Position numbers and translations under genes: made by a program. Shown piece after piece: positions 1 through 44,214 of a DNA stretch of 64,000 bases. The first letter of the stretch is position 1. The number at the start of each line of letters is the position of its first letter. The notes under the pieces were generated by a model. The model had not been told where the DNA came from and searched no databases. It worked only from the letters and a program-made list of their open reading frames with translations. This DNA is from Methanolobus sp. ZRKC5 (GTDB lineage: Archaea; Halobacteriota; Methanosarcinia; Methanosarcinales; Methanosarcinaceae): contig NZ_CP151792.1 of NCBI RefSeq assembly GCF_038446525.1, forward strand, positions 682,001 to 746,000, written 5' to 3'.

Positions 1-2
1 AT

Positions 3-1148: not shown

Positions 1149-1219
1149 TTTGTGAAGTTTATGATCTTCAAAAAATAATATAAATAAATTAATTAATGAA
1201 TAAAAACCTTTAATAAAAT

Positions 1220-1912
1220 ATGCCTATTGAAACTTATAATGGAAAAACATTTGTTGCTTTTGTAGATATTTCTGGTTTCAAACATTACATGAAGCATGAA
1301 CCTGAAAAAGCCGTGAAAGCGATTGATAGTTTTTTTCATAATGGTTATTCGATTTTAAAAACTCAGCACAATGAATTCAAAGTCGAGGGTATATTTGTTT
1401 CTGATTGTTGTATTTTATTTGTTAGAAATGAAACTAGGTCTGCAAACAGGATATATAAATCATTTAAATCGTTGTTGGATATAGTCAAACAGCTAAATAT
1501 CGCTATGTTACGAGATAACTTCATGGTAACAACATCAATCGCTTATGGAGAATTTAGCTATCAAGATAGAATTGAATTTACAGGCATTACTAAAAACCCA
1601 ATCATTAGCAATGCTTACATTTCTGCTTACTTAAATTCAGAAGTAAAGCCAAAAATCAAACCTGGACAATGCCGTATAGTTAAAGAAGATTTACCTAAAA
1701 AAGTTGATAAATCAATTTATGAAGCTGGTAATATTGACATCATCAAAATGATAAGAAACAGAAAATATGATACAAACAATTACTATTATTATTGGACTTT
1801 GGATGATTCAAATGAAATAGATAATTTTGAAATTAATTATACATCAGCTTGTAAACTGGATGAAAAACATAAGTACGATAAAATATTAGACCTCTTAAAA
1901 AATAGATTTTAA
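1220..1912 (+). CDS. class III nucleotidyl cyclase-like protein (possible Pycsar-type cyclase)
   Basis: A 230-residue protein with a single catalytic-domain layout. The N-terminal strand FVAFVDISGF (residues 11-20) matches the first metal-binding strand of class III nucleotidyl cyclases, with D16 at the catalytic position. The second strand, GIFVSDCCILFV, supplies D62 at the second metal position. A third segment (SIAYGEF, about 105-111, followed by a GITKNPIISNA stretch) resembles the GEV...N.A region of these cyclases. There is no transmembrane, HAMP or GGDEF segment. Small standalone cyclases of this type are the signal-producing half of Pycsar anti-phage systems. Nucleotide specificity cannot be read from the sequence. 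The upstream neighbour is a putative nuclease. Confidence 0.55.
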   Translation: MPIETYNGKTFVAFVDISGFKHYMKHEPEKAVKAIDSFFHNGYSILKTQHNEFKVEGIFVSDCCILFVRNETRSANRIYKSFKSLLDIVKQLNIAMLRDNFMVTTSIAYGEFSYQDRIEFTGITKNPIISNAYISAYLNSEVKPKIKPGQCRIVKEDLPKKVDKSIYEAGNIDIIKMIRNRKYDTNNYYYYWTLDDSNEIDNFEINYTSACKLDEKHKYDKILDLLKNRF

Positions 1913-1991
1913 TACCAATTGCAAAATATAGAAAATCAATTTTGAGAAGTTCAACTGCCTCTATGAAATCTACATTACATTATGATTTTAA

Positions 1992-2123
1992 GGCTCTGTA
2001 GAAATCCTATAAATTCAAACAATTATGCATATCAATAAAATTTCGAAATGTGGTTCAGAATATTGATTATTTTTGCAGAATTTAGGCTATAGATGTTGAT
2101 TTAATTAGGTTTTCTACAGAGCC
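1992..2123. mobile_element. IS6-like MITE, copy 1, with 8-bp target duplication
   Basis: A 132-bp noncoding element with near-perfect terminal inverted repeats, GGCTCTGTAGAAA at the left and TTTCTACAGAGCC at the right. It is flanked by an exact 8-bp direct repeat GATTTTAA (1984-1991 and 2124-2131). The 8-bp duplication and a GGCTCTGT-type terminus are typical of IS6-family elements (established knowledge), so this is best read as a nonautonomous derivative. No transposase of that family lies in the window. Two diverged copies occur at 21490 and 33851; the reverse complement of this copy aligns well with the 21490 copy. Confidence 0.85.
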
Positions 2124-2137
2124 GATTTTAACTCAAA

Positions 2138-5100: not shown

Positions 5101-5272
5101 TGAGTTTAGCTAAAAAATCAGATAATCTTTTATCTTGTCTTTTTTTAATTGCTAAATTTGCAGAAGCAGATATAAAACCACCGATCAAAGGTACTGAACT
5201 TAGTGTTGTTGTAATAAATTGAACCCTATCCTCCAGATCAGTGGAAATGGTATTGTCAGTTGTTTTCTCCAT
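2138..5272 (-). CDS. STAND-type P-loop ATPase with C-terminal TPR array
   Basis: A 1044-residue protein. After a short N-terminal region with a hydrophobic, glycine-rich helix (about 24-42) comes a STAND-type NTPase: Walker A GIPGVGKT at 98-105, Walker B FVLFFDDY with D183/D184, an R/T sensor in VVITRPSP near 211-217, and a GHPIALEL motif near 270 typical of STAND proteins. A winged-helix-like linker follows, then roughly fifteen tetratricopeptide repeats from about 440 to 1020 (recurring A...LG..Y...G....A pattern). STAND proteins use the repeats to sense a ligand and then oligomerise; many are anti-phage. No effector domain is obvious at the N-terminus. The gene is monocistronic and lies between MITE copy 1 and the casposon. 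Confidence 0.8.
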   Translation of the reverse strand: MEKTTDNTISTDLEDRVQFITTTLSSVPLIGGFISASANLAIKKRQDKRLSDFLAKLNDNTECCEYKESIPTNHHFLGRDEDIKNINDSGSRVIVIEGIPGVGKTYLGTELAKQHNLEGKVFWYTINEIDSAKTILCQLSSFLHQNNFSKAHGLLCKGNSDLNFLSDIIIEELDKDSFVLFFDDYHTLKDSQAKAIFEKLKRNLRKSIFVVITRPSPFCKFYTEHDLSSDNIFHVSLKGLNYDSSRKKLSNLGCNVNENTLLKIYDLTEGHPIALELISLYDKNVYDLESLFSQSPILPDNLVSYLFNEIFLGLSTEEKQVLKALSVYRTAVNIDAIKAHGLSNAIETSFKLSGKHLIEKNGKLYSSHPIIKNLSYSLIENKASYHDFAAEYYLSKKVVQTNEIIELQYHLLNAGDDLNSALITLHTSELLLRQGYVTPLFELLQLYKQETLPPEVWIFIGTILGKIYVIKHDLDSAESKFTEMLDLSYKLDYDNGVSSLLNNLSLIYLNKGDVTKSLDFQLKSLSLYEPQDDIKGKISCLINIGSVYLEIGEVDKSFMYANEALSEIESVNFPDIELVLFNLLGLIYRAYEDWDKAMSMFAKCKNIAVEIGDYSGIANASANLGNIYADRGQLEKAEKEYRQEIKAAKQSEEVLSIEAAYENFATLLADKKEYDKSNKCYNQVLDLCWQHGLVQNAATIYSNISSNFINKGDYDLALHNCKLAIKYAKKTAFKDNLANCLLNLGEIQEKRCNHKNVLVLYNKSISLCEETKNNYTKAFAYNKLGIFYNNKNDFDEAIKYFNLSLDLFSKFNSTTHCLMVCQNCIMIYDKLEDYNNTIKLYERMVVYLLDLNDKKKLSSTYMELIPKKYQQHNWLDLEKLCNDKINLGRELSEKMDLASTYGFLALALKYTKKYTESVAAHKEAISIAKEINDFELMAMFINDMGTTNLIIGNPKEAEANYLQSIEIKESNGNEVGIIRTYYNLGILYASMGDLQKGLEYLEKADDFYYQRGDFDKADQVFSTIITITYTNPKDIIDSLIIKPF

Positions 5273-5422
5273 TCAATAGTATATAGTTTCTTCAATGCTA
5301 ATAAAATTTATGATTTTGTAAATATCATATTAATGAAAGTAATAATCATTTATTCTTATCATTTTTGAAGTTACAATTTCGGATAGTATGTATTTTACAT
5401 TGTAGTTTTTAATTGTCGCCTA

Positions 5423-5470
5423 TGTCTCCTGAGTCTGTCTCTTGTCTGTCGTTTGCATTTGTCTCCTGAG
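5423..5470. repeat. direct repeats and GTC-rich motifs downstream of the casposase gene
   Basis: The 11-mer TGTCTCCTGAG occurs exactly twice (5423-5433 and 5460-5470), with TCTGTC/TTGTCTGTC repeats between and GACAAAAGGACAACTAAAGG just after (to 5512). This cluster lies immediately 3' of the casposase stop codon, where one casposon terminus is expected. I could not find a matching inverted copy downstream, so the terminal inverted repeat is not established. A related short hairpin (TTGTCGTT...AACGACAA) occurs at about 16085-16111 next to a polB fragment. Confidence 0.4.
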
Positions 5471-5513
5471 TTGTCATTGAAAACGACAAAAGGACAACTA
5501 AAGGACACAAAAA

Positions 5514-6728
5514 TTAACCATTTGCAACAAGTTTCTCCCACTTATCCAAACGTTCTCTTACATGAGCATTAAGCGTAAAAGGCTTATCTGCCTTCGCATT
5601 TTGCTTCATATAATGTAATGTACCCTTAGAAAATCCTAGCTTTTTCCAATCAGTATAAGAAATACTGAGTATCTTCTGTCGTATGTCGCTTGTATCCTGC
5701 CGCCTTGTTGCATACTGGGGATTAACAAAATCAATGTCCTGTCGTTTACCAACTAAATACTGAGCCAATTCCCTAGCTTTCAGGAATATCACATAACTCC
5801 ACATTGACATCTTGTTTTGATAGCTAACTCGTGTGTTAACACACGAGTTGACTGCTTCGGTTAGTTTCTTAGCGCCAGTGGGCCTCAGTCTCAGAGAATA
5901 GCTTTCAGTTCTAATGAAATCCGTCTTATCTATACCATTAGTCTCTATAAGCTTGATAACAGCTAGATCAACAAGGAATCTAAAAGGTTCTTGCAGGTCA
6001 TAGGCTAAACTATTCTTGCTAGGATTCATTTCATGGAGAAAACCTACATGGGGATCTAGCCCCACAGCATTAATGGCCCGCAGGCACTCTCCCTCTAACA
6101 AAGCATAGCCGTAATTGAGCATGACATTTACCATATCCCCGGCTGCTATGGCCCCCCGGCTCTGGTCACTTCTGGATTCATAATCGTATTTCTCAGGAAC
6201 GATCTTTGAGAATTCATTCCAGTACTTGTATGCAACTCCACCTTCCACACCTAGAATATCACTAACCTTCTTGGCAGATTCTAGCTTCTTCAGATCTGGT
6301 GAGAAATCATACTCTATTAGAGGATAACGTTGTTTAAGATAATCAAGCACCACCTGAGATTTATCAAACTTAGCCTCAATAAACTTCTTAGCTATTTGGA
6401 TTCGAGTCTTATCATCTTCATAAGCTCGGTATTGAGCAAACTTTGTCTTGACATTGGTACTCTCAGAAGGTAGCATTGTTGTCAGTAATTTGCCATCCCA
6501 GTTGAGTATTGAGATCTGAACATTATGTTTGATCAACCATCGAATTGCATCAAGTGTAAGGTTTCCATTTTGGCCATAGATGATAATGCTATCAACATCT
6601 ATTCTCTTTGGAGAAAATACGTATTCCTCTGGATCTTCAGTGCTTGAGGTTCTCCCATCTTTGATATGGAGCTTAGCCCCACTTACACGCATATCAATGC
6701 CATGACCATTTAGCAGCAGGAATTTCAT
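5514..6728 (-). CDS. cas1: casposase (Cas1-family integrase of a casposon)
   Basis: A 404-residue Cas1 homologue. The catalytic triad is visible: E212 in YALLEGE, H232 in GFLHEMN and E247 in DLQEPFR, each in standard Cas1 context (GLDP.xGFLH and EPFR.LVD). The protein is longer than a typical CRISPR Cas1 because of a C-terminal extension (about 340-404) forming a helix-turn-helix, LGFSKGTLHYMK followed by FTLNAHVRERL, as in casposases, where it helps bind target and donor ends. It overlaps the upstream winged-helix gene by four bases (ATGA), so the two are translationally coupled. Its C-terminal module recurs at the end of the casposon polymerase and in several gene fragments in this window. 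Confidence 0.93.
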   Translation of the reverse strand: MKFLLLNGHGIDMRVSGAKLHIKDGRTSSTEDPEEYVFSPKRIDVDSIIIYGQNGNLTLDAIRWLIKHNVQISILNWDGKLLTTMLPSESTNVKTKFAQYRAYEDDKTRIQIAKKFIEAKFDKSQVVLDYLKQRYPLIEYDFSPDLKKLESAKKVSDILGVEGGVAYKYWNEFSKIVPEKYDYESRSDQSRGAIAAGDMVNVMLNYGYALLEGECLRAINAVGLDPHVGFLHEMNPSKNSLAYDLQEPFRFLVDLAVIKLIETNGIDKTDFIRTESYSLRLRPTGAKKLTEAVNSCVNTRVSYQNKMSMWSYVIFLKARELAQYLVGKRQDIDFVNPQYATRRQDTSDIRQKILSISYTDWKKLGFSKGTLHYMKQNAKADKPFTLNAHVRERLDKWEKLVANG

Positions 6729-7576
6729 TTTAAGTCAACTCCTGGAATCTCACCACTTTCTACTAAACCAAGATTCTTCTTTGCCTGATACCTTATTTGA
6801 GAGAGAACTTTGGCGTTTGTATTTTTCCCATCTTTCCTCAACTCAATTTCAAGATCGAAAAGCACAGTCCGATGGCTCTCAATAACTTTTGCTGTATATC
6901 TTTTATCATACTCATCTTTAACATTTGAGAGATCATCCATTGTTCGAGCATCCTCAGTAAGTTGGTCAATTACGGCCCCATCTTCGTATATGCCAAGCAA
7001 AGCAATGACATGACCTCTTAGAGCTGAATGTTTCTGAGGTAATGAGGAGATTTTTGCCAAAAGTATTCTCAATTTATCAAGTAGAGCAGGAACATCTCTT
7101 GGTTGATTCCATTTATCAATGATATTGTAAGAAAGAATAACTAAAATATAATATGTTAATTCAATATTATCTTCATCTAGATTCCTGACAAGAACATCCA
7201 GTTGTGAGGGATACAATGAATAGACATTTTTGTAACTATCTATTTCTGCTAAAGCTGTAAGTTTGTCTTCATCATCTCCACTATCAAACAGCTCCAAAAC
7301 AGAATCAATGTGTTTTATCAGTTCAAGGCTTTGTTTTAGAACAACATACTTGAATTTCTTATTCGGTGCTTCAATGCCGTATTTTTCAACTTGTCCAGCT
7401 TTTAATATATCTATGAACCCAGCATCTTTCAATTCATCTAATCGTCGAATAATTGTTCTTTTGCTGCGGTGACTTTCGTAGGCATTTATAATATCTTCCC
7501 TCTTTACAATTCCGTAGCTAGAGAGGTATTCTTTCAATTCTTCAGCTAAATCTTTGCTTTTTCCTTGCTTACTCAT
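6725..7576 (-). CDS. casposon winged-helix DNA-binding protein
   Basis: A 283-residue protein with an N-terminal winged helix (residues about 8-65; IVKREDIINAYESHRSKRTIIRRLDEL reads as helix, turn, recognition helix, wing). The remaining 200 residues form a helical domain with alternating leucine-rich helices and a basic C-terminal segment. It is co-transcribed with and translationally coupled to the casposase gene downstream (ATGA overlap). It is transcribed divergently from the RHH-HTH-HNH-polB cluster across a 163-bp promoter region that contains repeated TGTCA half-sites. A role as casposon regulator or end-binding accessory factor is inferred from position. Confidence 0.6.
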   Translation of the reverse strand: MSKQGKSKDLAEELKEYLSSYGIVKREDIINAYESHRSKRTIIRRLDELKDAGFIDILKAGQVEKYGIEAPNKKFKYVVLKQSLELIKHIDSVLELFDSGDDEDKLTALAEIDSYKNVYSLYPSQLDVLVRNLDEDNIELTYYILVILSYNIIDKWNQPRDVPALLDKLRILLAKISSLPQKHSALRGHVIALLGIYEDGAVIDQLTEDARTMDDLSNVKDEYDKRYTAKVIESHRTVLFDLEIELRKDGKNTNAKVLSQIRYQAKKNLGLVESGEIPGVDLK

Positions 7577-7739
7577 GAGAACACCTCTGTTTTTTTATAA
7601 ATGTCATGTTTTTTAAATATCGGACAAATCCCACTAAATAAATGTAAAATTGTCTTAATTATATGACAAAACACATCAAATTAGATGTCATATTACATGT
7701 CACAATTGAATATAATACATTCGGTTATTTTGGATGTTG
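7577..7739. promoter_or_regulatory. divergent casposon promoter with TGTCA operator half-sites
   Basis: This AT-rich spacer separates the two divergent casposon transcription units. It holds TGTCA-type half-sites at 7602 (ATGTCAT), 7661-7668 (ATATGACA, opposite strand), 7686-7693 (TGTCATAT) and 7698 (TGTCAC). The sites at 7661 and 7686 form an exact inverted pair, ATATGACA...TGTCATAT, with a 17-bp spacer. The likely binders are the winged-helix protein (6725) or the RHH protein (7740) encoded at its edges, giving autoregulation of both arms. The protein-site match is inference. Confidence 0.5.
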
Positions 7740-7889
7740 ATGATTAAAAGTCAACCTACAAACAGGCTAACAATAACGTTAGCTCCCTATTTTAGGGATA
7801 AATTAGAACAGCTATCTAAAAAACTAAGATGCTCTCAGGCTGAAGTGCTCCGAATAGCATTATTCAAGTTAGCCGAGGAAGAACTATGA
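7740..7889 (+). CDS. small ribbon-helix-helix protein of the casposon
   Basis: A 49-residue protein. It has a short strand NRLTITLAPYF, a helix DKLEQLSKKL, a turn and a second helix SQAEVLRIALFKL, the CopG/Arc ribbon-helix-helix layout of small dimeric repressors. Its stop codon overlaps the start of the next gene (ATGA, 7886-7889), so it is the first gene of the polB operon. It is probably an autoregulator acting on the divergent promoter directly upstream. Confidence 0.65.
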   Translation: MIKSQPTNRLTITLAPYFRDKLEQLSKKLRCSQAEVLRIALFKLAEEEL

Positions 7890-8527
7890 CTAAGAAACGT
7901 TTTTCCAAGGAATACAGAACCTATGGTCAATGGTTAAAGGCTCAACCGAGAGATACCAGATATGCAAAAAGAATAATCCGAATGCATGAACGTTTCCCAA
8001 ACTTTGCTCTCAAAGAATTGAGAAATGTAACTCTAAAGGACCATGATCTAAGTACAAGATCTTGGAAGCTTCTTTCTTCACAGGAAAAGAGAGACCGCCA
8101 CCTATCAATCAAAATGCTCAGGGAAATGAGAAATGGAAATTACCTGAGTCATGTAATTGAAAGGTTTGGTGTTGGCAAGGAGTTTGCTGTCAAACATCTT
8201 GGAAAGTACCTCCACAAATCAGGCGGGAAATGGAAAGTCACAGCTTCAGATAAAGTCGAAGCTGAGATGCTATTCTATGAAAATGGGAAAGGGCAGAGAA
8301 CCATCGTTACAGCCAGTTCCAAGGATCGGTCTTTGATTGGTGAGTACTTTGCCTATGTATCAATAGCTGTAAACAGAAATGATCCTTCGTTTCTTGACAA
8401 GTTCAGAGATAGACCAATTATTGATGCTGAAGGTAAAGTCCACTATTTTGAGACAGACCTTGACAGACTTCACGAAATAACACAAGCTCAGGAAGAGCCT
8501 GAATTTTTAGAGATATACAAAAACTAA
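7886..8527 (+). CDS. casposon-conserved HTH protein
   Basis: A 213-residue basic protein. The first 70 residues are rich in K/R and aromatic residues (RTYGQWLKAQPRDTRYAKRI). A helix-turn-helix is likely around 90-125, in the segment reading NYLSHVIERFGVGKEFAVKHLG with the basic GKWKV after it. The C-terminal half looks like a small alpha/beta domain without catalytic motifs. It sits between the RHH gene and the HNH gene with tight spacing (ATGA overlap upstream, 12 bp downstream), as in other Methanosarcinales casposons. A role in replication or target recognition is inference. Confidence 0.5.
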   Translation: MTKKRFSKEYRTYGQWLKAQPRDTRYAKRIIRMHERFPNFALKELRNVTLKDHDLSTRSWKLLSSQEKRDRHLSIKMLREMRNGNYLSHVIERFGVGKEFAVKHLGKYLHKSGGKWKVTASDKVEAEMLFYENGKGQRTIVTASSKDRSLIGEYFAYVSIAVNRNDPSFLDKFRDRPIIDAEGKVHYFETDLDRLHEITQAQEEPEFLEIYKN

Positions 8528-8539
8528 GGAGTGTAAACT

Positions 8540-8872
8540 ATGGAAAAAGATGAATATGCGAATTACATTAGAAGAAACAAGAAAGGCAAGAAACCACCTA
8601 TTGCATGTGCTGTTTGTGGAGAAGATAATAAAGAAGTCATTGAAATGCATCATGTTGATGGAAGGAATAATTCAGACTGGGTTAAGCCGCTATGTCAGAA
8701 CTGTCATATAAAGATAACAGCAGAACAGAACAAACTCAGTCCTAAAACAAGATCTAAAGATACTTCTCTGCAAAATCTGAAAGCCTTTAACATTATCTCA
8801 ATTGGTGCTTTACTAAGGGATCTTGGACAGCGATTAATCAATCTTGGTATGGGGATGACTGTAAATGTCTAA
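8540..8872 (+). CDS. casposon HNH endonuclease
   Basis: A 110-residue protein with a compact HNH fold. CAVC (near 23-26) and CQNCH (near 54-58) supply the zinc-knuckle cysteines. EMHHVDGRNN (near 36-45) carries the catalytic histidine pair and the asparagine position of HNH nucleases. The C-terminal 40 residues are helical. Such a nuclease is a hallmark of many casposons; whether it acts on host DNA, on replication intermediates or on competitors is not known from sequence. It overlaps polB by 8 bases, so the two are translated together. A good Shine-Dalgarno sequence (AAGGAGTG) precedes its start. Confidence 0.8.
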   Translation: MEKDEYANYIRRNKKGKKPPIACAVCGEDNKEVIEMHHVDGRNNSDWVKPLCQNCHIKITAEQNKLSPKTRSKDTSLQNLKAFNIISIGALLRDLGQRLINLGMGMTVNV

Positions 8873-11537
8873 GATAGCTGTAAGGGCTTTCACTCAAAAG
8901 TGCAACCCTATTAATAGAAACTATCCTCAAAGAAAAGAGCCTCCTTTGAGACATAACCGAGTATTGGTCTTTGATACTGAAACAACAACTGATCAATATC
9001 AAAACCTAAAGATTGGTTTCTTTCAGATATACCAGGATGGATACATTCAGCATGAAGGGTTATTCCATGACCCCTCTATGTTAGATGACCGTGAGAATAA
9101 AGTTACTCTGGCATATCCAATAAAGCAAGACCTTCCACTCTATTCATTAAAAGAGTTCGTAGATGAGGTATTTTATCCTGAAATATACGGTCTTGGTACT
9201 CTTTGCATTGGTTTCAATCTAGCATTCGATATTAGCAGAATAGCAAAGAAAACAGGAGATTCAAGGAAGGGAAACAAAGGCGGATTTACACTTACATTAT
9301 CAGACAATCCTTACAATCCACCCATAATCATCCGTAAGATGGGAGAATCTTACACATATAAGTTCTCTACAACCAAACAAAACAAGGGTAAAGATTATTT
9401 TCCCGGTCATTTCCTTGATGCTCAAACACTTGCTGAAGTTCTTTTGCAAAAGAAACGTATCTCACTTGATAAGGCATGTGAGTTGCTTGACACAAAAAAC
9501 AAGAAGATGAAAGGTATTGAACACGGTATTGTTACTGAAAGGTACATTGACTATTTGATTATGGATGTCAAATCAACCTATGACGTGTACTTGAAATTGC
9601 TTGATGAACTTGATCTATACCAGATAGATATTCCTCTAACAAAGATATTCAGTGCAGCTTCCCTTGGAAAATACGCTCTTGATCAGTTGGGAATTCAACC
9701 ATTCCACAAACAAAACCCTCTATTCTTACCTGATACCCTTGGTAATATCATGACGGCTTACTTTGGTGGCCGTTGTGAATGTATGTTCAGGAAGCAACCC
9801 ACAAAAGTTACAGTTCTTGATTTTACCAGCATGTACCCATCTGTTACAATGATTCTGGATATGTGGAAGTACATAATAGCCGAGAAATTACGGACTGTGG
9901 ATGCGACTGAAGAGATCAAAGACTTGCTTTCAAAGGTATCTCTTGAGTACTTGCAGAATAAGGAAAATTGGAAAGACTTTGTTGGAATGGTCAAGATCAT
10001 TCCTGACAACGATATACTACCTACAAGAATGGATTATAATGGTAAGAAACAAAGCTTGAATGTAGGAGTTAATTATCTTTCTTCCAAGTCTCCAATATGT
10101 TTTTCCCTGCTCGATGTAATCGGTTCTGTGCTTTCGACAGGGAAAGTACCTGAGATTGTTGAAGCAACTCGATTTGTCCCTTCAGGTATGCAAAATAGTC
10201 TTGTGAAATCTTCTATTCTTGGTATTGAAGTTGATCCTAAGAAAGATAATCTCATTCAGACCTTTGTTGAAGAGAGACAGAATATCAAAACTAGAATGAA
10301 GAGTATGGATAGAGACTCATCAGAGTATCGTCATCTATCGAGTCAAGCACAGGCTATCAAAATTCTTGTTAATGCTATGAGTTATGGGATCTTTATTGAA
10401 CTCAATCCAGAGGATAAGAAGAGTGATATTGAAGTCTATGGGCTTGATAGCTTTGATACTTCTGAGAATAGATATGAAAAGGCCGGAAAGTACTTTCATC
10501 CACTGCTTGCAGTGATGATCACTTCCGGTGCACGGCTGTTTTTATCCATGGCCGAGGCCAAGGTAAAAGAGCTTGGTGCAGCCCATGCTTACATGGACAC
10601 CGACTCTGTGTTTGTTCCGCCTGAGCACGCTCAGGAGATTGTGGATTATTTCCAGCCCCTAAACCCTTATGACCTTGACATCTCTTTGCTAAAACCTGAA
10701 AAAGAGGATATGTGGTTCTATGGAATATGTTCTAAGAGGTATGCTCTTTACAACAAAGAAGGTGAGAATTTTAGCTTCTATGAGCATGAGAGATCCTACA
10801 AGCTACATGGTCTAGGCCATTTGACTAATCCATTTCCTAATGGTAATAAAGACTGGCATGCTGATGTCTGGCTGGATATTCTTCGCTTACATTATGGGAT
10901 TATAAAGCCAATAGATATTGAAGAGAGGTATTCTAATCTCTATGCTATCTCAAGGCTCACAGTCAGTACTGCTAATGTGTTGAAGAGGTTTAAGACGATC
11001 AATGAAGGCAAACCATGGTCTGAACAGATCAAACCTTTTAATTTCTGCACTGTTGGTTTTCAAACCATTGAGGATGATGGACAAACTATCAAACCTCTTG
11101 CTCCTTTCTCTAAAGATTCACAGAAAATAGTCTATGAACCATTTTTAGACTACAATACAGGTGAGATCAAGCAAGGATCACATTATTTTAAATCTCTAAA
11201 TACAACAATAATGCAGTATGCAGATCATCCTGAGTACAAGTATGAAGGTGATATTGGTCAGATGAAACGCAGGCATATCCATGCAGACAGTGTTGTTCTG
11301 ATTGGAAAGGAGGCTAACAACATTGATGATCAAGCTTTGGATATAGGACAGGCTCAAGTTTTCCTCAATAAACAGGATATCATGGATAAGATTATGCAAC
11401 TGGATGTCAAGATGGGGAGAAAAGTAGGTATTGCTTACAGAGGCACTCTGAAGAGGATTCAGGATAAGATAAAGCAAACAGGAGACATCAATCTGAATGC
11501 TAGGTTTATGAGGGAACTTGCGGATAAGCTCATCTGA
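8865..11537 (+). CDS. polB: family B DNA polymerase of the casposon
   Basis: An 890-residue B-family polymerase. 3'-5' exonuclease motifs: Exo I VFDTET (D37, E39), Exo II GFNLAFDI, Exo III YLIMDVKS. Polymerase motifs: A, VLDFTSMYPS with D319; B, KILVNAMSYG; C, AYMDTDS with D578/D580. All catalytic acids are present, so it should be active. The long inter-motif insertions fit the protein-primed group used by casposons and viruses. The last 45 residues (from about 845) form a helix-turn-helix module, VGIAYRGTLKRI...NLNARFMREL, that aligns with the end of the casposase. It ends at a T-rich convergent terminator. Confidence 0.93.
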   Translation: MSKIAVRAFTQKCNPINRNYPQRKEPPLRHNRVLVFDTETTTDQYQNLKIGFFQIYQDGYIQHEGLFHDPSMLDDRENKVTLAYPIKQDLPLYSLKEFVDEVFYPEIYGLGTLCIGFNLAFDISRIAKKTGDSRKGNKGGFTLTLSDNPYNPPIIIRKMGESYTYKFSTTKQNKGKDYFPGHFLDAQTLAEVLLQKKRISLDKACELLDTKNKKMKGIEHGIVTERYIDYLIMDVKSTYDVYLKLLDELDLYQIDIPLTKIFSAASLGKYALDQLGIQPFHKQNPLFLPDTLGNIMTAYFGGRCECMFRKQPTKVTVLDFTSMYPSVTMILDMWKYIIAEKLRTVDATEEIKDLLSKVSLEYLQNKENWKDFVGMVKIIPDNDILPTRMDYNGKKQSLNVGVNYLSSKSPICFSLLDVIGSVLSTGKVPEIVEATRFVPSGMQNSLVKSSILGIEVDPKKDNLIQTFVEERQNIKTRMKSMDRDSSEYRHLSSQAQAIKILVNAMSYGIFIELNPEDKKSDIEVYGLDSFDTSENRYEKAGKYFHPLLAVMITSGARLFLSMAEAKVKELGAAHAYMDTDSVFVPPEHAQEIVDYFQPLNPYDLDISLLKPEKEDMWFYGICSKRYALYNKEGENFSFYEHERSYKLHGLGHLTNPFPNGNKDWHADVWLDILRLHYGIIKPIDIEERYSNLYAISRLTVSTANVLKRFKTINEGKPWSEQIKPFNFCTVGFQTIEDDGQTIKPLAPFSKDSQKIVYEPFLDYNTGEIKQGSHYFKSLNTTIMQYADHPEYKYEGDIGQMKRRHIHADSVVLIGKEANNIDDQALDIGQAQVFLNKQDIMDKIMQLDVKMGRKVGIAYRGTLKRIQDKIKQTGDINLNARFMRELADKLI

Positions 11538-11539
11538 GA

Positions 11540-11576
11540 GCTTATTCCTCTTTTTTTATTTTTTTTTGTTTTTTCT
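11540..11576. terminator. T-rich terminator between polB and the GIY-YIG gene
   Basis: Directly after the polB stop there are runs of seven, nine and six T on the plus strand, the usual intrinsic termination signal of archaea. It overlaps the end of the convergent GIY-YIG gene, whose lysine-rich C-terminus is encoded by the same tract. Confidence 0.6.
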
Positions 11577-12032
11577 GCTTAATTTATCTGATTTTGCTTT
11601 ATCGTTAAATTCAGGCAGACAGTTGTACTTTTTAGCATAGGTTGCAAAACACTCATATTCAAATTTTGCTACCTCTCCCATTGTTCTTAAATCTTCAGGA
11701 GTATTAGATTTAACATCACATATGAATGGACGAACAGAAACAAAAAGTCTGTTTAGAAGATCTTGATAGGTCTGATACTTATACATAAACCGATCAGCTC
11801 CTCCATGCTTTGTCTTTCCGTTAATAGTGCTATTAAACTGCTTTAAACGACCTTTTAGTCCGTTTCGTGAGTTAGTCATACCCACATATTTAATTTCACG
11901 AATCCAAGTAAAATCTTGCTCAGACAAATCTGATTCCGAGAGAGCTATGCAATAAATTCCCGGATACTTAATATCAGGTAGGTTATTCCGGTCTTCCCAT
12001 TTTATCCATTTAGTAAAATTACTCTTGATCAT
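11556..12032 (-). CDS. GIY-YIG endonuclease-like protein
   Basis: A 158-residue protein with a GIY-YIG core. PGIYCIAL (near 25-32) and IKYVGMT (near 47-53) are the two signature strands, followed by the conserved arginine helix GLKGRLKQF. A glutamate in VAKFEYECF fits the catalytic acid of the family. The C-terminus is a basic tail (KLSRKNKKK). GIY-YIG domains occur in homing, repair and restriction nucleases; the substrate here is unknown. It is the last gene of a minus-strand group with a small zinc ribbon and a second GIY-YIG protein, probably casposon cargo. Confidence 0.65.
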   Translation of the reverse strand: MIKSNFTKWIKWEDRNNLPDIKYPGIYCIALSESDLSEQDFTWIREIKYVGMTNSRNGLKGRLKQFNSTINGKTKHGGADRFMYKYQTYQDLLNRLFVSVRPFICDVKSNTPEDLRTMGEVAKFEYECFATYAKKYNCLPEFNDKAKSDKLSRKNKKK

Positions 12033-12037
12033 ATGAT

Positions 12038-12172
12038 TTATTTCTCACCCCATATGTTTTTACATTCACGGCATTGGTATAGTACTTGTGTTTTATACCC
12101 GGGATCTTGGATATCAACAATTGCTTTTACATTTTGAACTTGACATTCAGGACATATCATATTTTCAGCCAT
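12038..12172 (-). CDS. small zinc-ribbon protein
   Basis: A 44-residue open frame with two CxxC pairs (ICPECQ near 6-11 and QCREC near 33-37), the pattern of a treble-clef or zinc-ribbon fold. The ATG directly follows the stop of the upstream GIY-YIG gene (TAAATG) and its own stop lies 6 bp before the next GIY-YIG gene, so it is sandwiched in an operon. A purine-rich GGAGGGAAA sequence within the end of the upstream gene serves as ribosome binding site. Function unknown. Confidence 0.6.
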   Translation of the reverse strand: MAENMICPECQVQNVKAIVDIQDPGYKTQVLYQCRECKNIWGEK

Positions 12173-13024
12173 TTATTTTCCCTCCTTATCTTTTTGTCTT
12201 ACAATTTCATCTAGTGTTTTACCTTCTTTGTCCTTCCAAAGCGTCCATCCATTAGCAGCTCTGCCTAGTACAACTGATGCCGACATGGATGGTGAAGAAA
12301 ACGTAAAATCTTCTTGGTAAACATAGACACCATCTTCTTCCTTTACAATTCCCTTTTCTACTAAATTAGCTCTAAATGCTCGTACACTTGGTTGAAGAGA
12401 CGTTGTTTCTTCTACGTTTGACTTTGATCCCTTGTTGACGACAAAACCTTCTTCAGTATATTCACCAACAGCATCAGCATCCTTGCTCTTACAATAGTAT
12501 GTATTTTTCTTGCTACGTTTTGCTTGTTCGAAAATAGGATAACCAAGGGTAGCCATTATAATCTTTAATTCATCAAAGAAACGCAAAACAAAATCCCGGT
12601 CTTGATCTGTTAGAGATGATTTAGTGGGAGTATTACTATTTTCAAGAGTACATTTATTGACTAATTTAGCCTGCTCACAAGCATGATTTTCAAGATACTT
12701 GATATGAGCTTTGTTAAGATTATTTTTCTCTGAAACAAAACATATAGCTTGATTCCAAAAATCTTTCTTTTTGTGGTGATCATTTAAACGAGTTGTTAGT
12801 ATTTCTGATTCACCAACATATACTTTTGGTTTTCCAACTTCGTCTTTTTCACCTATTAAGAAGTAAAGCCCCGGCTGTTCAAGCTCTGGTCTTTTCAAGC
12901 CAGCGTCTAACTTTGCTCGAGGAATAGAAACAGCTTTGACAATAGAATCAAAGAACTCGCATATTTTCACTCCCTGTGGATTGGCATCTGGCAGATAAAT
13001 TGAAATTGTTCTTCCTATTGTCAT
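12173..13024 (-). CDS. GIY-YIG nuclease with DUF4357-like C-terminus
   Basis: A 283-residue protein. The N-terminal third carries GLYFLIGE and KVYVGES, the GIY and YIG strands, followed by LTTRLNDHHKKKDFW, the conserved arginine and histidine helix. The C-terminal region (about 190-275; VRAFRANLVEKG... ASVVLGRAANGWTLWKD) resembles the DUF4357 domain that accompanies this GIY-YIG subgroup in restriction-like proteins. It heads a three-gene minus-strand operon. Role in the casposon or in defence is inferred from company, not from a known member. Confidence 0.7.
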   Translation of the reverse strand: MTIGRTISIYLPDANPQGVKICEFFDSIVKAVSIPRAKLDAGLKRPELEQPGLYFLIGEKDEVGKPKVYVGESEILTTRLNDHHKKKDFWNQAICFVSEKNNLNKAHIKYLENHACEQAKLVNKCTLENSNTPTKSSLTDQDRDFVLRFFDELKIIMATLGYPIFEQAKRSKKNTYYCKSKDADAVGEYTEEGFVVNKGSKSNVEETTSLQPSVRAFRANLVEKGIVKEEDGVYVYQEDFTFSSPSMSASVVLGRAANGWTLWKDKEGKTLDEIVRQKDKEGK

Positions 13025-13093
13025 GAATTGAACCTCTAAGAATATACTATAATTGAGAGATTTAAAAACAGATACTTAGCTATGTGTGAATCA

Positions 13094-14053
13094 CTACTCT
13101 AAACTATTTATTATTTCAACTAATCGTTCAACATCTTCAATCGCTTTGATCACTTTATTTCTCTCAAAGTTTTTCTGATTATTATGGATTTTATTATTCC
13201 TAACATGGTATGCGTCGTTAATAGATGATATTAATTCATCATCTAATTCCTGTTTTCCTATAAATGAAATCGTAAATTTGATTTTATCCATTAGCTTAAC
13301 GTTTTTAAATGTGCCTTCAAGATTGATTTCATCTTGTTCAGATTTTCTTCTAAAATAACCACTCAAAGCAGATTCTACGGAGATAAATAGTTCGATATAT
13401 ACTAAATCAAAATGATATTCTGTATAGTGGATCTTAGCCATTTCCAAATATTTCTTATCAATTCTTGTAGCTGAGGTTAAATCTTCTGTTACGAGGTTTA
13501 TATGATCAAAAGACTTCAGTTCTTCTTCATTTCCAGTAATTTGCTGTATCTCTAAAGAAACAAGGTCCGTGTTTTCTGATTGATCCAATATCTCTCTCAA
13601 ATTTCGGAGTTCTATGTAGTTTCCAAGATCAGAACTTCTAATTTTGTAGTCTAACTCTATTTTTTTGTCAAATAAGTCTTCCAATTCAGCCCGATTTTCA
13701 CATTTTTCATTTTCAAGATCACTTAGGTAAGCTTCATAATATATATCAGAATCCATAAGTGCAGTTTCAATGTCGCTGATAGGTATACCCGTAACTTCTG
13801 AAATAACATGGTCAATTTCTTTTACTGTGAAATGAGATTTGTCAAATCGACTTTTTACTTCAGACACATTTGTTTCATATTTACAGTAGTATTCTGTAAT
13901 TCCCTCATCTCTTTGGAGATCGGCATCAATTTCGACTATTTTATCCTGCATTAAAAAAATAAAATTGAGAATTGGATCATTTTCTGGTGGCAACTCCCAT
14001 TTCCACTCTTTAACTGCAAACTTTCCAATTTGTATATAGCTATAATCACCCAT
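13094..14053 (-). CDS. HEPN-domain protein with Rx4H motif
   Basis: A 319-residue, very acidic helical protein. Most of it is unrecognised. The last 110 residues read as a HEPN four-helix bundle: LVYIELFISVESALSGYF is a typical HEPN helix, and R285-NNKI-H290 is the Rx4H motif that in active HEPN proteins forms the RNase centre. The long N-terminal part may be a sensor or partner-binding domain with a coiled-coil section (residues 110-160). HEPN RNases are common toxins and abortive-infection effectors. No antitoxin-like partner is adjacent: the GIY-YIG operon lies 69 bp downstream on the same strand. Confidence 0.55.
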   Translation of the reverse strand: MGDYSYIQIGKFAVKEWKWELPPENDPILNFIFLMQDKIVEIDADLQRDEGITEYYCKYETNVSEVKSRFDKSHFTVKEIDHVISEVTGIPISDIETALMDSDIYYEAYLSDLENEKCENRAELEDLFDKKIELDYKIRSSDLGNYIELRNLREILDQSENTDLVSLEIQQITGNEEELKSFDHINLVTEDLTSATRIDKKYLEMAKIHYTEYHFDLVYIELFISVESALSGYFRRKSEQDEINLEGTFKNVKLMDKIKFTISFIGKQELDDELISSINDAYHVRNNKIHNNQKNFERNKVIKAIEDVERLVEIINSLE

Positions 14054-14167
14054 TCGAACAACAAAATATAATTATTAGTTAAAATAAATTTTGTATTAGA
14101 TATTCAACTTTTGTGTTAACAACAGACTTCTTAAAATTCTGAGTATCTATATTTCAAGATACCTATT

Positions 14168-14190
14168 ACCCCGCACAATTGTGTGGGGAT
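14168..14190. promoter_or_regulatory. palindrome upstream of the beta-propeller surface protein
   Basis: In the 348-bp AT-rich gap before the gene at 14402 there is a near-perfect GC-edged palindrome, CCCCGCACAATTGTGTGGGG (14169-14188), about 215 bp upstream of the start codon. Its position and its ACCTAT..CCCCGCA lead-in resemble the structured element upstream of the PEF-CTERM gene at 40952, although the right half differs. It could be an operator or a transcript hairpin. The rest of the gap shows only AT-rich sequence with possible TATA boxes. Confidence 0.35.
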
Positions 14191-14401
14191 ATATACAACG
14201 CGAAAAAAGTGTACGGTTTTGTAGTTACATGGCACAACCATATTTATACTTATTGAAAAAAACATGCTTAATAAATGATTAAACTGTTAACTTTTTAAGT
14301 AGCATTGTTTCGCAAATTATATCGTTGTTTAGAAAAAAAACATAATAGCATAGCATTTGAGTTACAATTAATTAATTAATAATTTGTAGGGGTGGGTGTA
14401 A

Positions 14402-17481: not shown

Positions 17482-17492
17482 AGGTATCCATT

Positions 17493-38182: not shown

Positions 38183-38254
38183 TCTCCAGTTTTTCTATTT
38201 ATTGTATAAACTATGAGTACACCACCGAATAGTTATGGTTCGGATTGCACCCTT

Positions 38255-38298
38255 CGCATATTATGGAGGGATAATAGTAATAACCAAAAAATGCAACG
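38255..38298 (+). promoter_or_regulatory. conserved element upstream of PEF-CTERM gene 1
   Basis: A 44-bp stretch about 205 bp before the start codon of the gene at 38504. It shares CGCATATTA, GGAGGG and the uninterrupted 19-mer AATAGTAATAACCAAAAAA followed by (T/C)GCAACG with the region upstream of the second PEF-CTERM gene (40651-40695). The rest of the two intergenic regions is not similar, so this part appears conserved. The remaining gap 38183-38503 is AT-rich and empty. Confidence 0.55.
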
Positions 38299-38503
38299 CT
38301 ATTTTAAGTCGATGATACAATAATCTTCAAAAAATCTATACAAATAATTAATGGTTTTTTTTAAAATTGCCTTTTTTTTACGTGATTTCTATTTTTTATT
38401 GACAACATTATTTTTAAAATAAAATTAAAAATGTTATAATACCTTGAAAACCGAATTTAAAATATAGTCATATTCTATGAACATATGATTTGGGGGTACG
38501 AAA

Positions 38504-39037
38504 ATGAAAATAATAGAAATGAATACACACAAATTGAGCATTTTTACCATTACATTATTACTAATGATAATGTCTGTTGGAAATGCAGTAGCATTTGACC
38601 CGGCAAACCCATCGATTGATATCGAGAAATCTACCAACGGGGTTGATGCCGATGATTCGGACGATGCTCCAGAGATTCTTGTTGGTAGCGATGTTACTTG
38701 GACGTATACAGTAACAAATACCGGCAATGTAGATTTAACCAATGTTGTTGTTGCTGACGATAAGATTGGTGATCCTCTATATAATGTCGGCAACCTCTCG
38801 GTAGGCGAGTCCTTTACATTTGATGCTACTGAGATAGGTTCTGCTGCACTGGGCTTATACACAAATGTGGGTACTGCGAGGGGTGAGTATGGTGAGACGC
38901 TAGTATCTGATACTGATCCTAGCCACTATTTCGGTGTGGAAGATACCGAAATTCCAGAATTCCCAACCATTGCTCTCCCAGTAGTTGCAGTTCTTGGTCT
39001 GGCATTGTTCTTCCAGCATAGAAAAGATTATAAATAA
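38504..39037 (+). CDS. PEF-CTERM surface protein with DUF11-like domain
   Basis: A 177-residue secreted protein. Signal peptide 1-31 (LSIFTITLLLMIMSVGNAVA). The ectodomain has one beta-sandwich repeat of the DUF11/DUF7507 type (VTWTYTVTNTGNVDLTNVVVADD). It ends with PEFPTIALPVVAVLGLALFF and a basic QHRKDYK end, the PEF-CTERM sorting signal of methanogens, recognised by an archaeosortase and expected to be cleaved for surface anchoring. The start at 38504 follows GGGGGTACG. The C-terminus and both flanks match the gene at 40952. Confidence 0.85.
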   Translation: MKIIEMNTHKLSIFTITLLLMIMSVGNAVAFDPANPSIDIEKSTNGVDADDSDDAPEILVGSDVTWTYTVTNTGNVDLTNVVVADDKIGDPLYNVGNLSVGESFTFDATEIGSAALGLYTNVGTARGEYGETLVSDTDPSHYFGVEDTEIPEFPTIALPVVAVLGLALFFQHRKDYK

Positions 39038-39043
39038 TTGATT

Positions 39044-39072
39044 GGAGGTTTTAATCCTCCATCTATTTTAAT
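39044..39072 (+). terminator. hairpin terminator after PEF-CTERM gene 1
   Basis: GGAGG-TTTTAAT-CCTCC hairpin (39044-39060) followed by a T-rich sequence, six bases after the stop codon. The downstream region of the other PEF-CTERM gene has the same layout. Confidence 0.55.
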
Positions 39073-39084
39073 ATTAATAAAGAA

Positions 39085-39549
39085 TTAAAATGCACTTACC
39101 AACTTCTTCACCTTCTTTGTCCTGAAATTGAATTTACCACCACTCAAAATCCTGTCCTTCATCCTCTTGAGTGTGCTCCTGTGTTTAATTCCATATTCTC
39201 TTGCGTCTTTTGGAGTCAGAGCCAGTATTTGCAGTTTGATTGATTCCTCATCAACGAAGGTTTGTGCTCTCTGAAGCTCTAATTCCTCTTCATCAATATT
39301 GTTGGCTTCCTTTCCAATATAGCGGATACCTTCTGCATGAACATGTTTCCTTTCCAATATTCCAATATCCCCATCAAACTTAGATTCAAGATGATTAGCA
39401 TACTCTATTATTGTCCTGCTAAGTTGCTTGAAATAATGAGATCCTTGTTTGATCACTCCTGTTTCATAATCAATAAAAGACTCATAAACACTACTCTGAG
39501 GATCATTAGAGAAAGGAGCTAAAGGTTTTACAGGTGAAGGAAAACTCAA
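39085..39549 (-). pseudogene. casposon polB C-terminal fragment 2
   Basis: An open frame of 154 codons corresponding to the last sixth of casposon PolB. KPLAPFSNDPQSSVYESF matches the intact polymerase (KPLAPFSKDSQKIVYEPF), and the frame continues through RYIGKEANNID to the C-terminal module YGIKHRSTLKRM. There is no start codon or upstream polymerase domain, so it is a fragment, but it has no internal stop. It is more similar to the intact copy than fragment 1. It lies convergent to the PEF-CTERM gene at 38504. Confidence 0.85.
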
Positions 39550-39724
39550 TTTGAATACTCCGGCAGTGAGGAGACTACTAACTTTTCAAAAAAAACTTTA
39601 AATAAATAATAAAATACTTGTATAAATTATTATAAATACAACTTTATGTTTATTAACGCTGGAATGATGTCAGAGTCTTATTCCTACCATACATTAAAAT
39701 TATTTTTGAGGAGACCTGCAATAA

Positions 39725-40510
39725 ATGAAAAAACATTTACTTGACGTAGTATTTGCATCTGAAAAAAGGAAAAATGTACTCCTGTTATTACAGAATGGAG
39801 AACTGAAGATGGAAGCTCTCCTCAAGGCTCTGGACACAACAAGAAATGCACTGCTTCCTCAGATGAAGATCTTAGAAGAGCATTACCTTGTGTTTCACTA
39901 TGGTGATAACTATGAACTAACAACTATTGGGAAACTGGTTGTTGATGAGATGGTCCCTTTATTGAATACTATTGAACTTTTTGAGAATGATATTGATTAC
40001 TGGGGAACTCGCAATCTTAGTTTTATTCCTCCTCACCTTTTGCAACGCATAGATGAACTTAGAAAATGCAAGATTATAACTCCTCCTTATGTAGATATAT
40101 ATAAACTCAATGAAGAAATTCAGGAAACATCCCCTATTTCAAAAACACATTATGGAATTGTGACATTTTACCATCCTTTGTTTCCTCAATTTATATCAAA
40201 TATGATATCAAACAATGTAAATGTGTATTTGATAGTACCTCAATCTGTGCTTGACCAATTTAGAACTGAGCACTCCACACTATTTAAAAAATTAATTAAA
40301 AGTGAGTTCTTTCATTTTTCTGTATATCTTGAAAATATGAGTTTTTTGGGCATTGCATGTAACGACTATTACTTTATGATGAGGCTGTTAAAAAACAATG
40401 GTGAACATGATACAAGATATATCCTCTGTGATGGTAAAGAGGCATTAGAATGGGGAAAAGAACTTTTTGATTATTGCCTAAAATATTCTACAGCAATAAC
40501 CGAAATTTGA
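39725..40510 (+). CDS. winged-HTH regulator with FilR1/DUF1724 domain
   Basis: A 261-residue regulator of the methanogen type. The N-terminal winged helix (residues 1-75) reads KRKNVLLLLQNGELKMEALLKALDTTRNALLPQMKILEEHYLV. The C-terminal domain (about 125-255) matches the FilR1_middle/DUF1724 layout (ISKTHYGIVTFYHPLFPQFI and later YFMMRLLKNNGEHD). Paralogues in Methanosarcina (the Msr family) control methyltransferase genes and filament formation; the target here is not evident. Its position between two surface-protein genes suggests local control of these. Good GAGGAG ribosome site. Confidence 0.8.
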   Translation: MKKHLLDVVFASEKRKNVLLLLQNGELKMEALLKALDTTRNALLPQMKILEEHYLVFHYGDNYELTTIGKLVVDEMVPLLNTIELFENDIDYWGTRNLSFIPPHLLQRIDELRKCKIITPPYVDIYKLNEEIQETSPISKTHYGIVTFYHPLFPQFISNMISNNVNVYLIVPQSVLDQFRTEHSTLFKKLIKSEFFHFSVYLENMSFLGIACNDYYFMMRLLKNNGEHDTRYILCDGKEALEWGKELFDYCLKYSTAITEI

Positions 40511-40621
40511 TTAACCTTTTTTGCATTAATCCTTAATTTTGTTATTACAGTTATAATTTTTAATAACTGGTTATTTTTTGTTTTGTCCATTTCAACAAAA
40601 CATATTTAATTTAGATTAAGA

Positions 40622-40694
40622 GTTGCGTTTTTTATAGTTACCTATATCCCCGCATATTAGGGAGGGGGTAATAGTAATAACCAAAAAACGCAAC
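40622..40694 (+). promoter_or_regulatory. 73-bp imperfect palindrome upstream of PEF-CTERM gene 2
   Basis: The element begins GTTGCGTTTTTT and ends AAAAAACGCAAC. The inner arms also pair (GTTACCTATATCCCC with GGGGGTAATAGTAATAAC), so the whole 73 bp can fold as one long hairpin with a GCATATTAGG tip. Its right arm is the stretch conserved upstream of PEF-CTERM gene 1. It lies about 260 bp before the start codon, probably within the 5' leader or as an upstream operator. The remainder of the 40511-40951 gap is AT-rich and empty. Confidence 0.6.
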
Positions 40695-40951
40695 GATAAA
40701 TTTAAACCAGTAGTATCATTCATTTGGTAGATATTGAATTAATTTTAACTGTTGCTTTGAAATAATCTGTGTTTTGTATCCCTTGACATTATATCATTCA
40801 GATTAGCTCTGTTAACTTTTTAATGAACAATGATTCGAATCATAGTTTCATAAAGAATATAGTATACTGTAAAACAAACGTATTTATGCACAGAAATCGA
40901 AATGTCATGTTAGCATATTGTATTCAATATGAATTGGTGGGTGGTAAGAAA

Positions 40952-41407
40952 ATGAAAATTAAACAAAATATGATGAATTGTATAGACGTAGCCTTGATAA
41001 TTCTGATAATGTTTGCGGGAAATGCAGCAGCAACTCCACTAAACTATCCACCGGTGGCAGATGCCAATGGTCCTTATGAAAGCTGCGTAGGTTCAATCAT
41101 AACCCTTGATGCTTCGGGTTCCTATGATCCTGATTATCCTATTGGATCAATTGTTTCATGGGAATGGGACATAGATGACGATGGAGAATTTGATGATGCT
41201 TCGGGTGAGACTGTCGACTGGACATGGGGTAGTGTCGGTGACAAAGTGGTCAGTCTCAGGGTTACCGATGATGTTGGAGCCATTGACGTTGGTTATGCCA
41301 CAGTAAGAGTCAATGAATGTGGAGAAATCCCAGAGTTCCCAACAATTGCACTTCCAGTAATTGCAATACTCGGACTTGCATTCTTCTTCCAGCGTAGGAA
41401 AGACTAA
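40952..41407 (+). CDS. PEF-CTERM surface protein with PKD domain
   Basis: A 151-residue protein when started at 40952, which follows GGTGGGTGG and gives a proper signal peptide (about 1-31, VALIILIMFAGNAAA); the open frame extends upstream to 40823 without a ribosome site. The ectodomain is a single PKD repeat (PPVADANGPYES, WEWDIDDDGEFDD, WTWGSVGDKVVSLRVTDD). The end is a PEF-CTERM signal: PEFPTIALPVIAILGLAFFF then QRRKD. The tail is nearly identical to that of the gene at 38504, while the ectodomains are unrelated. Confidence 0.85.
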   Translation: MKIKQNMMNCIDVALIILIMFAGNAAATPLNYPPVADANGPYESCVGSIITLDASGSYDPDYPIGSIVSWEWDIDDDGEFDDASGETVDWTWGSVGDKVVSLRVTDDVGAIDVGYATVRVNECGEIPEFPTIALPVIAILGLAFFFQRRKD

Positions 41408-41418
41408 AAATAATTTAT

Positions 41419-41447
41419 TGGAGGTTTTTACCCTCAATCTATTTTTA
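41419..41447 (+). terminator. hairpin terminator after PEF-CTERM gene 2
   Basis: GGAGG-TTTTTA-CCCTC stem followed by AATCTATTTTTATT. It is closely similar to the region after PEF-CTERM gene 1, supporting duplication of the whole locus. Confidence 0.5.
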
Positions 41448-41467: not shown

Positions 41468-41920
41468 TCAACATCCACCCCACGTTTCCAACCTCCCCCT
41501 CACATGGACATTAAGCGTAAAAGGCTTATCGTACTCAGCATTTTACTTCATATAATGCAATGTACCCTTAGAAAAACCCATTTTCTTCCATTCAGTGTAA
41601 CTGATAGCAATAATCGTCTTCCTGATCTCATCCGTATCCTGTCTTTCAATCTTGTAGGAAGGATGGGTAAAATCAATCGTCCTCTTTTTACCATTCAGGA
41701 ATTGAGCCAACTCCCTTGTTTTCAGTAAAAGAACATAGCTCCACATCATTGACTTATCTTGATATGTTACCTTCTTATTCATCCAAGATTGGAACTCCTC
41801 TGTAAGCTTCTTAGCTCCACTGAGTCTAAGCCTGAAAGAATAATTATCAGTCCTGATGAAGCCCTTCTTATCCATCCTTTCTGATTCTATCAGACTGATA
41901 ACCGCAAAATCTACAAAAAA
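41468..41920 (-). pseudogene. casposase C-terminal fragment 2 (about 150 residues, one stop)
   Basis: Homology to the casposase starts near DFAVISLIESERMDKKGFIRTDNYSFRLR and runs to the end of the gene. The frame is open for 110 residues (41543-41875), contains SYTEWKKMGFSKGTLHYMK, and is then interrupted by a TAA in place of a glutamine or lysine codon before NAEYDKPFTLNVHVRGRL. A homopolymer-A frameshift at about 41912-41928 breaks the upstream end. None of the catalytic residues is preserved. The 42,000-42,200 stretch upstream is unrecognised, with fragments of open frame only. Confidence 0.85.
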
Positions 41921-44039: not shown

Positions 44040-44127
44040 TCATTACCACATTATAGTGAATACGTATACAAATATTTTAATATTCCGAACTAAAATTAAA
44101 TCTTTCTATTTGTTGGTTTAAAGTCAA

Positions 44128-44214
44128 CTATCCCCACATTTCCAACCGTTCCCTCACATGAACATTGAGGGTAAACGGTTTATCTCCGTTCGCATTTTTC
44201 TTCATACAGTGTAA
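44128..44214 (-). pseudogene. casposase C-terminal fragment 3
   Basis: Twenty-eight codons, from LHCMKKNANGDKPFTLNVHV to RERLEMWG and a stop, equal to the very end of the casposase. Homology begins abruptly at TTACACTG, three bases after the stop of another gene fragment (44217-44291), so it is a recombination junction. It breaks at nearly the same residue as the fragment at 17493 and lies 0.5 kb from an integrase. Confidence 0.8.

Follow-up and report, generated by a model that had tools for sequence, protein, structure and literature searches.

A window of 64,000 nucleotides from the archaeon Methanolobus sp. ZRKC5 (positions 682001-746000 of a 3.05-Mb genome, one contig) contains two genes for PEF-CTERM proteins preceded by the same short sequence element. 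This element is almost certainly the terminal inverted repeat (TIR) of family-2-type casposons, transposons employing a Cas1 enzyme. The two genes are then cargo beside the TIRs of two tandem casposon-derived elements at one tRNA-like target, and the hairpin at the second gene consists of the right TIR of one element, a target-site duplication (TSD), and the left TIR of the next. Directly observed are the TIRs, the TSDs, the tandem architecture, the remnants, the position of the cargo, and an intact casposon with the same cargo in another species. We call the elements of the window element 1 (or E4) and element 2 (or E5), and use E1 and E2 for two casposons elsewhere in this genome (52.8-68.4 kb). 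The initial annotation of this DNA had correctly described two genes with PEF-CTERM tails, a downstream hairpin and a common upstream element, and did not mention the casposon remnants that lie on both sides of the genes.

Casposon ends around the two genes

The longest exact run common to both copies of the element is of 20 nt (TAATAGTAATAACCAAAAAA, 38272-38291 and 40669-40688), so that the exact match noted initially holds but is longer than the 19 nt then given. Dinucleotide shuffles expect 0.05 matches to this 20-mer even allowing three mismatches. With the TSD included, about 45 bp are common to both sites. The casposon MetMaz-C1 of M. mazei has the published TIR GGGATATAGGTAACTCAAAAAAACGCAACGC and a TSD of 14 nt (PMC10359463). 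The right TIR of element 1 is identical to this TIR at 27 of 29 aligned positions, a score reached by no shuffle, and the left TIR shows 26 identities with it in a gapped alignment of 33 columns. Between E1 and element 2, the left TIRs agree in 35 of 35 positions (GGGGGTAATAGTAATAACCAAAAAACGCAACGATA, in the window from 40664).

The initial annotation had proposed a genome search for the element and regarded its being a mobile repeat as evidence against a regulatory role. The search finds just that: further copies lie at 52.8, 60.9, 68.4, 115.9, 1945, and 2596 kb of the genome, several of them as inverted pairs, and the convincing copies that were examined are casposon ends. A position weight matrix (PWM) built from 13 TIRs was also scanned over 1.59 Mb of casposase-linked loci, these having been ascertained via casposase motifs that favour the C-terminus. 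At a score of at least 18 it gives 132 TIR matches, versus 2 in shuffled sequence.

Element 1 contains a PEF-CTERM gene, a PolB remnant and a FilR1-type regulator between casposon-type TIRs, and has a TSD of about 14 nt at a tRNA-like 3′ end with the leader TTCGRAY-N9-CGMA (Table 1). Of a family B DNA polymerase gene there is the C-terminal remnant alone. Because a casposase gene of the Cas1 family is missing as well (the Cas1 C-terminal remnant lies in element 2), element 1 is filed as a non-autonomous derivative and not as an autonomous casposon. The PolB and Cas1 remnants are closest to E1, not to the intact casposon of the window, and hence the ends and the remnants point to the same casposon lineage. 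The parent type of the remnants is thus found in a casposon elsewhere in this genome.

Table 1. Casposon-related features of the window (positions from its first nucleotide)
Feature	Position	Strand	Evidence or remark
Target-site leader GGTTCGGATTGCACCCTT	38237..38254	+	tRNA T-arm-like TTCGRAY-N9 directly before TSD
TSD, left copy CGCATATTATGGAG	38255..38268	+	near-identical copy at 40651-40665
Left TIR of element 1 (first upstream element)	38269..38301	+	TIR PWM and model matches, MetMaz-C1 alignment
Element 1, 2.38-kb TIR-bounded non-autonomous casposon derivative	38269..40650	.	TIR at both ends, TSD on both sides, no casposase
Cargo gene, DUF7507/DUF11 protein with PEF-CTERM tail, 177 aa	38504..39037	+	Pfam PF24346, NCBIfam TIGR03024
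Casposon PolB C-terminal remnant, 145 aa	39097..39531	-	aa identity 76% to E1 PolB, 50% to PolB of the window's intact casposon
FilR1/HVO_A0261-type regulator, cargo beside right TIR	39725..40510	+	Pfam PF08350, PF25213
Right TIR of element 1, left arm of 73-bp hairpin	40616..40650	-	MetMaz-C1 TIR alignment
TSD between tandem elements CGCATATTAGGGAGG, hairpin loop	40651..40665	+	
Left TIR of element 2, right arm of hairpin (second upstream element)	40666..40698	+	identity to E1 TIR
Cargo gene, PKD-domain protein with PEF-CTERM tail, 151 aa	40952..41407	+	Pfam PF18911, NCBIfam TIGR03024
Casposase (Cas1) C-terminal remnant, one in-frame stop	41480..41899	-	aa identity 83% to E1 Cas1, 63% to the window's intact casposase; NCBIfam cas1
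Second short casposase C-terminal fragment	44116..44214	-	tblastn, 89% over 27 aa to E1 Cas1
Target-site copy at element 1, abbreviated form CGCATATTA..GGA			
Related intact casposon, about 14.7 kb	1..14171		TIRs at both ends; left end 486 bp outside the window (genome 681516, L024:17517)
Its casposase	5514..6728	-	
Its HTH protein	6725..7576	-	
Its HNH-like protein	8540..8872	+	
Its PolB	8865..11537	+	
Second tandem junction	14141..14218		right TIR, TSD CGCACAATTGTGTG (14172-14185), left TIR of next element

Some observations weigh against this reading of the two elements. For element 2, the left TIR alone is recognised; an unfiltered search with the TIR model found no right TIR between 41.4 and 48 kb, its best score being 4.8 bits (E 0.41). 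The two TSD copies around element 1 differ by one substitution and a 1-nt indel. An empty site was not found when the left flank was compared with 26 congeners (27 genomes of the genus including its own), this flank being unique to this genome. The ends of element 1 belong to two TIR subtypes, MetMaz-C1-like on the right and E1-like on the left, and may thus not stem from a single transposition unit. This last point leads to a variant of the casposon reading, whose chances we consider evenly balanced, in which a deletion fused two neighbouring casposons of an array into element 1, which thus never was one transposition unit. The mixed subtypes, versus the matched TIRs of the other bounded casposons here, argue for such a fusion. 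However, both ends are recognisable and have the same target sequence on either side, and in the mini-casposon assay TIRs with TSDs were moved by a casposase supplied from the chromosome (PMC10359463).

The sequence at 42172-42186 was considered as the right end of element 2 and was not counted, as its resemblance is weak and partial (3.2 bits) and it overlaps an apparent hairpin. A secreted-looking protein of 612 aa is encoded on the minus strand at 42201-44039, with the second Cas1 C-terminal fragment behind it. The region 42201-44214 may represent one more decayed casposon edge, the third, in which no TIR can be recognised.

Tandem junctions and target sites

The 73-bp hairpin reported at the second gene is indeed present (40622-40694, 73 nt, -28.3 kcal/mol, z = -5.5). 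In the loci fetched from this and related genomes there are 28 junctions formed by a right TIR, a short spacer and a left TIR. The spacer is exactly 14 nt long in 24 of the 28, and most spacers begin with CGCA or end with TGCG. Since the published casposon TSD is of 14 bp and consists of CGCA plus an AT-rich part (PMC6977970), the spacer of the hairpin is a TSD. The window holds two of these junctions, CGCACAATTGTGTG between 14171 and 14186 and CGCATATTAGGGAGG between 40650 and 40666, the second being one base longer. Tandem casposons parted by the TSD alone are known in Methanosarcina, as cited in PMC6563490 and PMC9939771, and the tandem insertion of a mini-casposon in vivo has been published (PMC10359463). 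The tandem junction accounts for an otherwise puzzling hairpin, and junctions of two TIRs separated by 14 nt provide a cheap signature for decayed casposon arrays that have lost cas1.

The strong fold at 40.65 kb could also be taken for a functional RNA structure in a 5′ untranslated region, as the initial annotation had suggested. This is extremely improbable, because the copy of the element at 38.2 kb, before the first gene, forms no hairpin (z = 0.14 and -0.59) and the junctions elsewhere often pair different TIR types. Among five further sites compared, z ranges from -2.5 to -3.8 and is -0.3 in a locus of another species of the genus (L177), mixed-type pairs folding less well or not at all. 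No structure is conserved across the copies, and Rfam gives no match at the element.

The target at 38237 reads GGTTCGGATTGCACCCTT followed directly by CGCATATT, and has the same geometry as the 3′ end of the tRNA-Leu gene at 115.86 kb of the genome (TTCGAAT-N9-CGCA). The same leader spacing is found at 52.8, 681.5, 1041, and 1945 kb. The strict motif TTCG[AG]A[TC]-N8-10-CG[CA]A lies just before 36 of the 93 distinct single TIRs of the set, many of these sites resembling real tRNA 3′ ends. Such leaders agree with the published requirement of the TSD and about 30 bp of tRNA sequence (PMC6977970). At 115863 (L019:7864), a casposon left TIR lies directly at the tRNA-Leu 3′ end, and some 15-20 kb downstream of it there are a Cas1 remnant and a FilR1-type gene (L023:12465-13127).

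In the history that we propose, a casposase would insert its element after the tRNA-like leader and before the TSD, and repeated insertion at one leader would build arrays, with the newest element presumably beside the leader. Older elements would decay by internal deletion, keeping the TIRs, the edge cargo, and the C-terminal outer ends of polB and cas1. Elements 1 and 2 would thus have lost most of their core and retained C-terminal stubs of PolB and Cas1 together with a PEF-CTERM gene, and the 73-bp hairpin would be the by-product of a casposase re-using one target. A casposase of the E1 type may have mobilised both elements in trans. Many genomes (loci L040-L115) have just the C-terminal 50-150 residues of a casposase, which fits internal deletions that spare the edges, although the motif used for ascertainment favours the C-terminus.

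Surface proteins as casposon cargo

Both cargo tails match TIGR03024 (E = 2e-8 and 2e-11; 34.2 and 43.9 bits) above its curated cut-off of 23 bits, and have the C-terminal PEF motif, a transmembrane segment and a basic end. Their ectodomains, DUF7507/DUF11 and PKD, are unrelated, in agreement with the initial annotation. Counted on the alignment, 32 of 36 positions agree between the 3′ flanks of the two genes, which contain a GGAGG/CCTCC hairpin. The cargo products could be anchored by an archaeosortase.

The element lies 235-286 bp upstream of the two genes and FilR1-type regulators recur beside TIRs, as one might expect of a cis-regulatory DNA site at which a regulator, such as the adjacent FilR1-type protein, co-ordinates PEF-CTERM genes. 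A binding site for such genes had been one of the roles suggested initially. Yet when all 14 PEF-CTERM genes of the genome were listed and the 3-kb locus of each scanned, the TIR was found only at the two of the window, the best match at the other 12 having 12-14 mismatches of 31, which is the level of shuffles. Therefore, the element does not co-ordinate PEF-CTERM genes. Its occurrence as inverted pairs at casposon ends, with unrelated cargo beside it, further makes a regulatory site very improbable.

PEF-CTERM genes are recurrent casposon cargo. The locus L177 contains an intact casposon of 9.0 kb at a tRNA-Leu target, with TIRs at 1116 and 10119, a perfect 14-nt TSD at both ends (CGCACCTGCGCTTC), a casposase, and PolB. 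Its cargo, a PEF-CTERM gene with collagen repeats, lies 258 bp inward of the TIR and is convergent with cas1; this is the layout of element 2, the core being intact. The layout of element 1 is seen in L178, where a DUF11 PEF-CTERM gene and a PolB remnant are convergent, the gene being 243 bp away from the TIR. In Methanococcoides, PEF-CTERM genes lie beside Cas1 remnants at 342 and 347 bp from the TIR (L083, with PKD, and L107, with a weak Big_1 match). One casposon end of 240 bp in the same genus precedes other secreted proteins with unrelated ectodomains, namely a NosD beta-helix, a subtilase, and a PKD-type protein.

More generally, of 61 first inward-facing open reading frames (ORFs) at a distance of up to 600 bp from a TIR, 17 (28%) are secreted-like, versus 9.2% of all ORFs of the same loci (binomial p = 2e-5). 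This comparison uses a crude hydropathy rule for secretion and related loci, which were chosen via casposase motifs biased to the C-terminus and in which duplicates were removed only where the first 60 residues agree. Outward-facing first ORFs are at the baseline (5 of 55). That secreted proteins, PEF-CTERM ones among them, recur in the cargo slot next to the TIR suggests a transfer of cell-surface genes between methanogens by casposons. Of the anchoring cassette with a swapped displayed domain that had been proposed initially, the swapping finds support, since unrelated secreted ectodomains recur in this slot in other genomes. The expression module does not, the carrier being a transposon end and not a promoter module. 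A 345-bp leader swapped as one block was considered and rejected. The 5′ 240 bp of this leader correspond to the Methanococcoides casposon ends, and its 3′ part, with the promoter region and signal peptide, recurs in this genome at 199 and 2161 kb, with ordinary PEF-CTERM genes. Because the gene-proximal leader and signal-peptide region resemble these ordinary genes, the edge cargo probably keeps its own promoter. More tentatively, casposons of Methanosarcinaceae might have a variable cargo slot inside the TIR that favours surface-anchored or secreted proteins, and the exchange of ectodomains behind a common end, via tandem insertion and recombination in the shared leader and tail, might be a route of surface diversification, although we consider this rather unlikely.

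FilR1/HVO_A0261-type regulators transcribed towards a casposon TIR are found at 39725-40510 of the window and in other loci (L043:4006, L053:4085, L079:11690, L093:6175, L097:14224). It is possible that the FilR1-type gene regulates the casposon or its cargo.

Casposons have been studied mainly as the source of CRISPR adaptation, and to our knowledge little has been described of what they carry for their hosts. MITE-type (miniature inverted-repeat transposable element) derivatives of transposons are non-autonomous, keeping their ends and having lost the transposase. Element 1 differs from them in being longer and in carrying intact cargo genes rather than non-coding filler. The casposons of M. 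mazei, MetMaz-C1 included, share with our elements the TIR, the 14-nt TSD of CGCA plus an AT-rich part, tRNA-Leu or tRNA-like targets, and tandem insertion (PMC10359463, PMC6977970), and their casposase is homologous to that of the window. In contrast, elements 1 and 2 have PEF-CTERM surface-protein genes as cargo and neither casposase nor polymerase. The synthetic mini-casposon (PMC10359463) has the same order of TSD, TIR, cargo, TIR, and TSD without a casposase, and depends on chromosomal Cas1. Element 1, for its part, occurs naturally, with diverged ends and remnants of the core, and is only putatively mobile. The two proteins of the window resemble other PEF-CTERM proteins (TIGR03024, putative archaeosortase substrates) in their signal peptide, ectodomain, and tail above the cut-off, and differ in being cargo of a Cas1 transposon, which the 12 others of the genome are not. 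A literature search on surface-protein cargo of casposons found nothing relevant in the papers searched. In conclusion, the mobile element is of a known kind, here in a non-autonomous form with surface-protein genes as cargo, which we did not find described in that literature.

Other casposons in this genome

E1 and E2 are casposons in tandem. E1 (8.1 kb, 52.8-60.9 kb) has genes for a casposase, a helix-turn-helix (HTH) protein, a protein of 213 aa, an HNH-like protein, and a frameshifted PolB; E2 (7.5 kb, up to 68.4 kb) adjoins it and is decayed. Three exact TSD copies (CGAACTTTAATGG) separate the TIRs at 52.8, 60.9, and 68.4 kb (loci L017 and L018). For the third left TIR, at 68454, a right end was not found by 100 kb.

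The intact casposon at the start of the window has a casposase, PolB, HNH, HTH, TIRs, and a TSD, whose core GCACAATTGTGT is exact at L024:17504 and at window position 14173. Its casposase gives cas1 hits and matches PDB 6opm (E = 1e-193), whose record says only Cas1 and which we take to be the crystallised M. mazei casposase of PMC6977970. Its PolB, HNH, and HTH are named from sequence, layout, and their homologues in E1, with no match to a family-level hidden Markov model. The cargo of this casposon has the look of defence and includes, besides a nuclease-like gene (3-1148), a STAND NTPase (NB-ARC/TPR, 2138-5272) and GIY-YIG-like proteins.

The element that follows the second tandem junction (14186-17588) has the same plan as elements 1 and 2: after a TIR come a secreted PD40/FIMAH protein (14402-15664), convergent with what remains of the PolB C-terminus (15699-16058), and a C-terminal remnant of Cas1 (17502-17588). 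Further along the window, a type I restriction-modification-like locus with embedded extra genes occupies 21648-32054.

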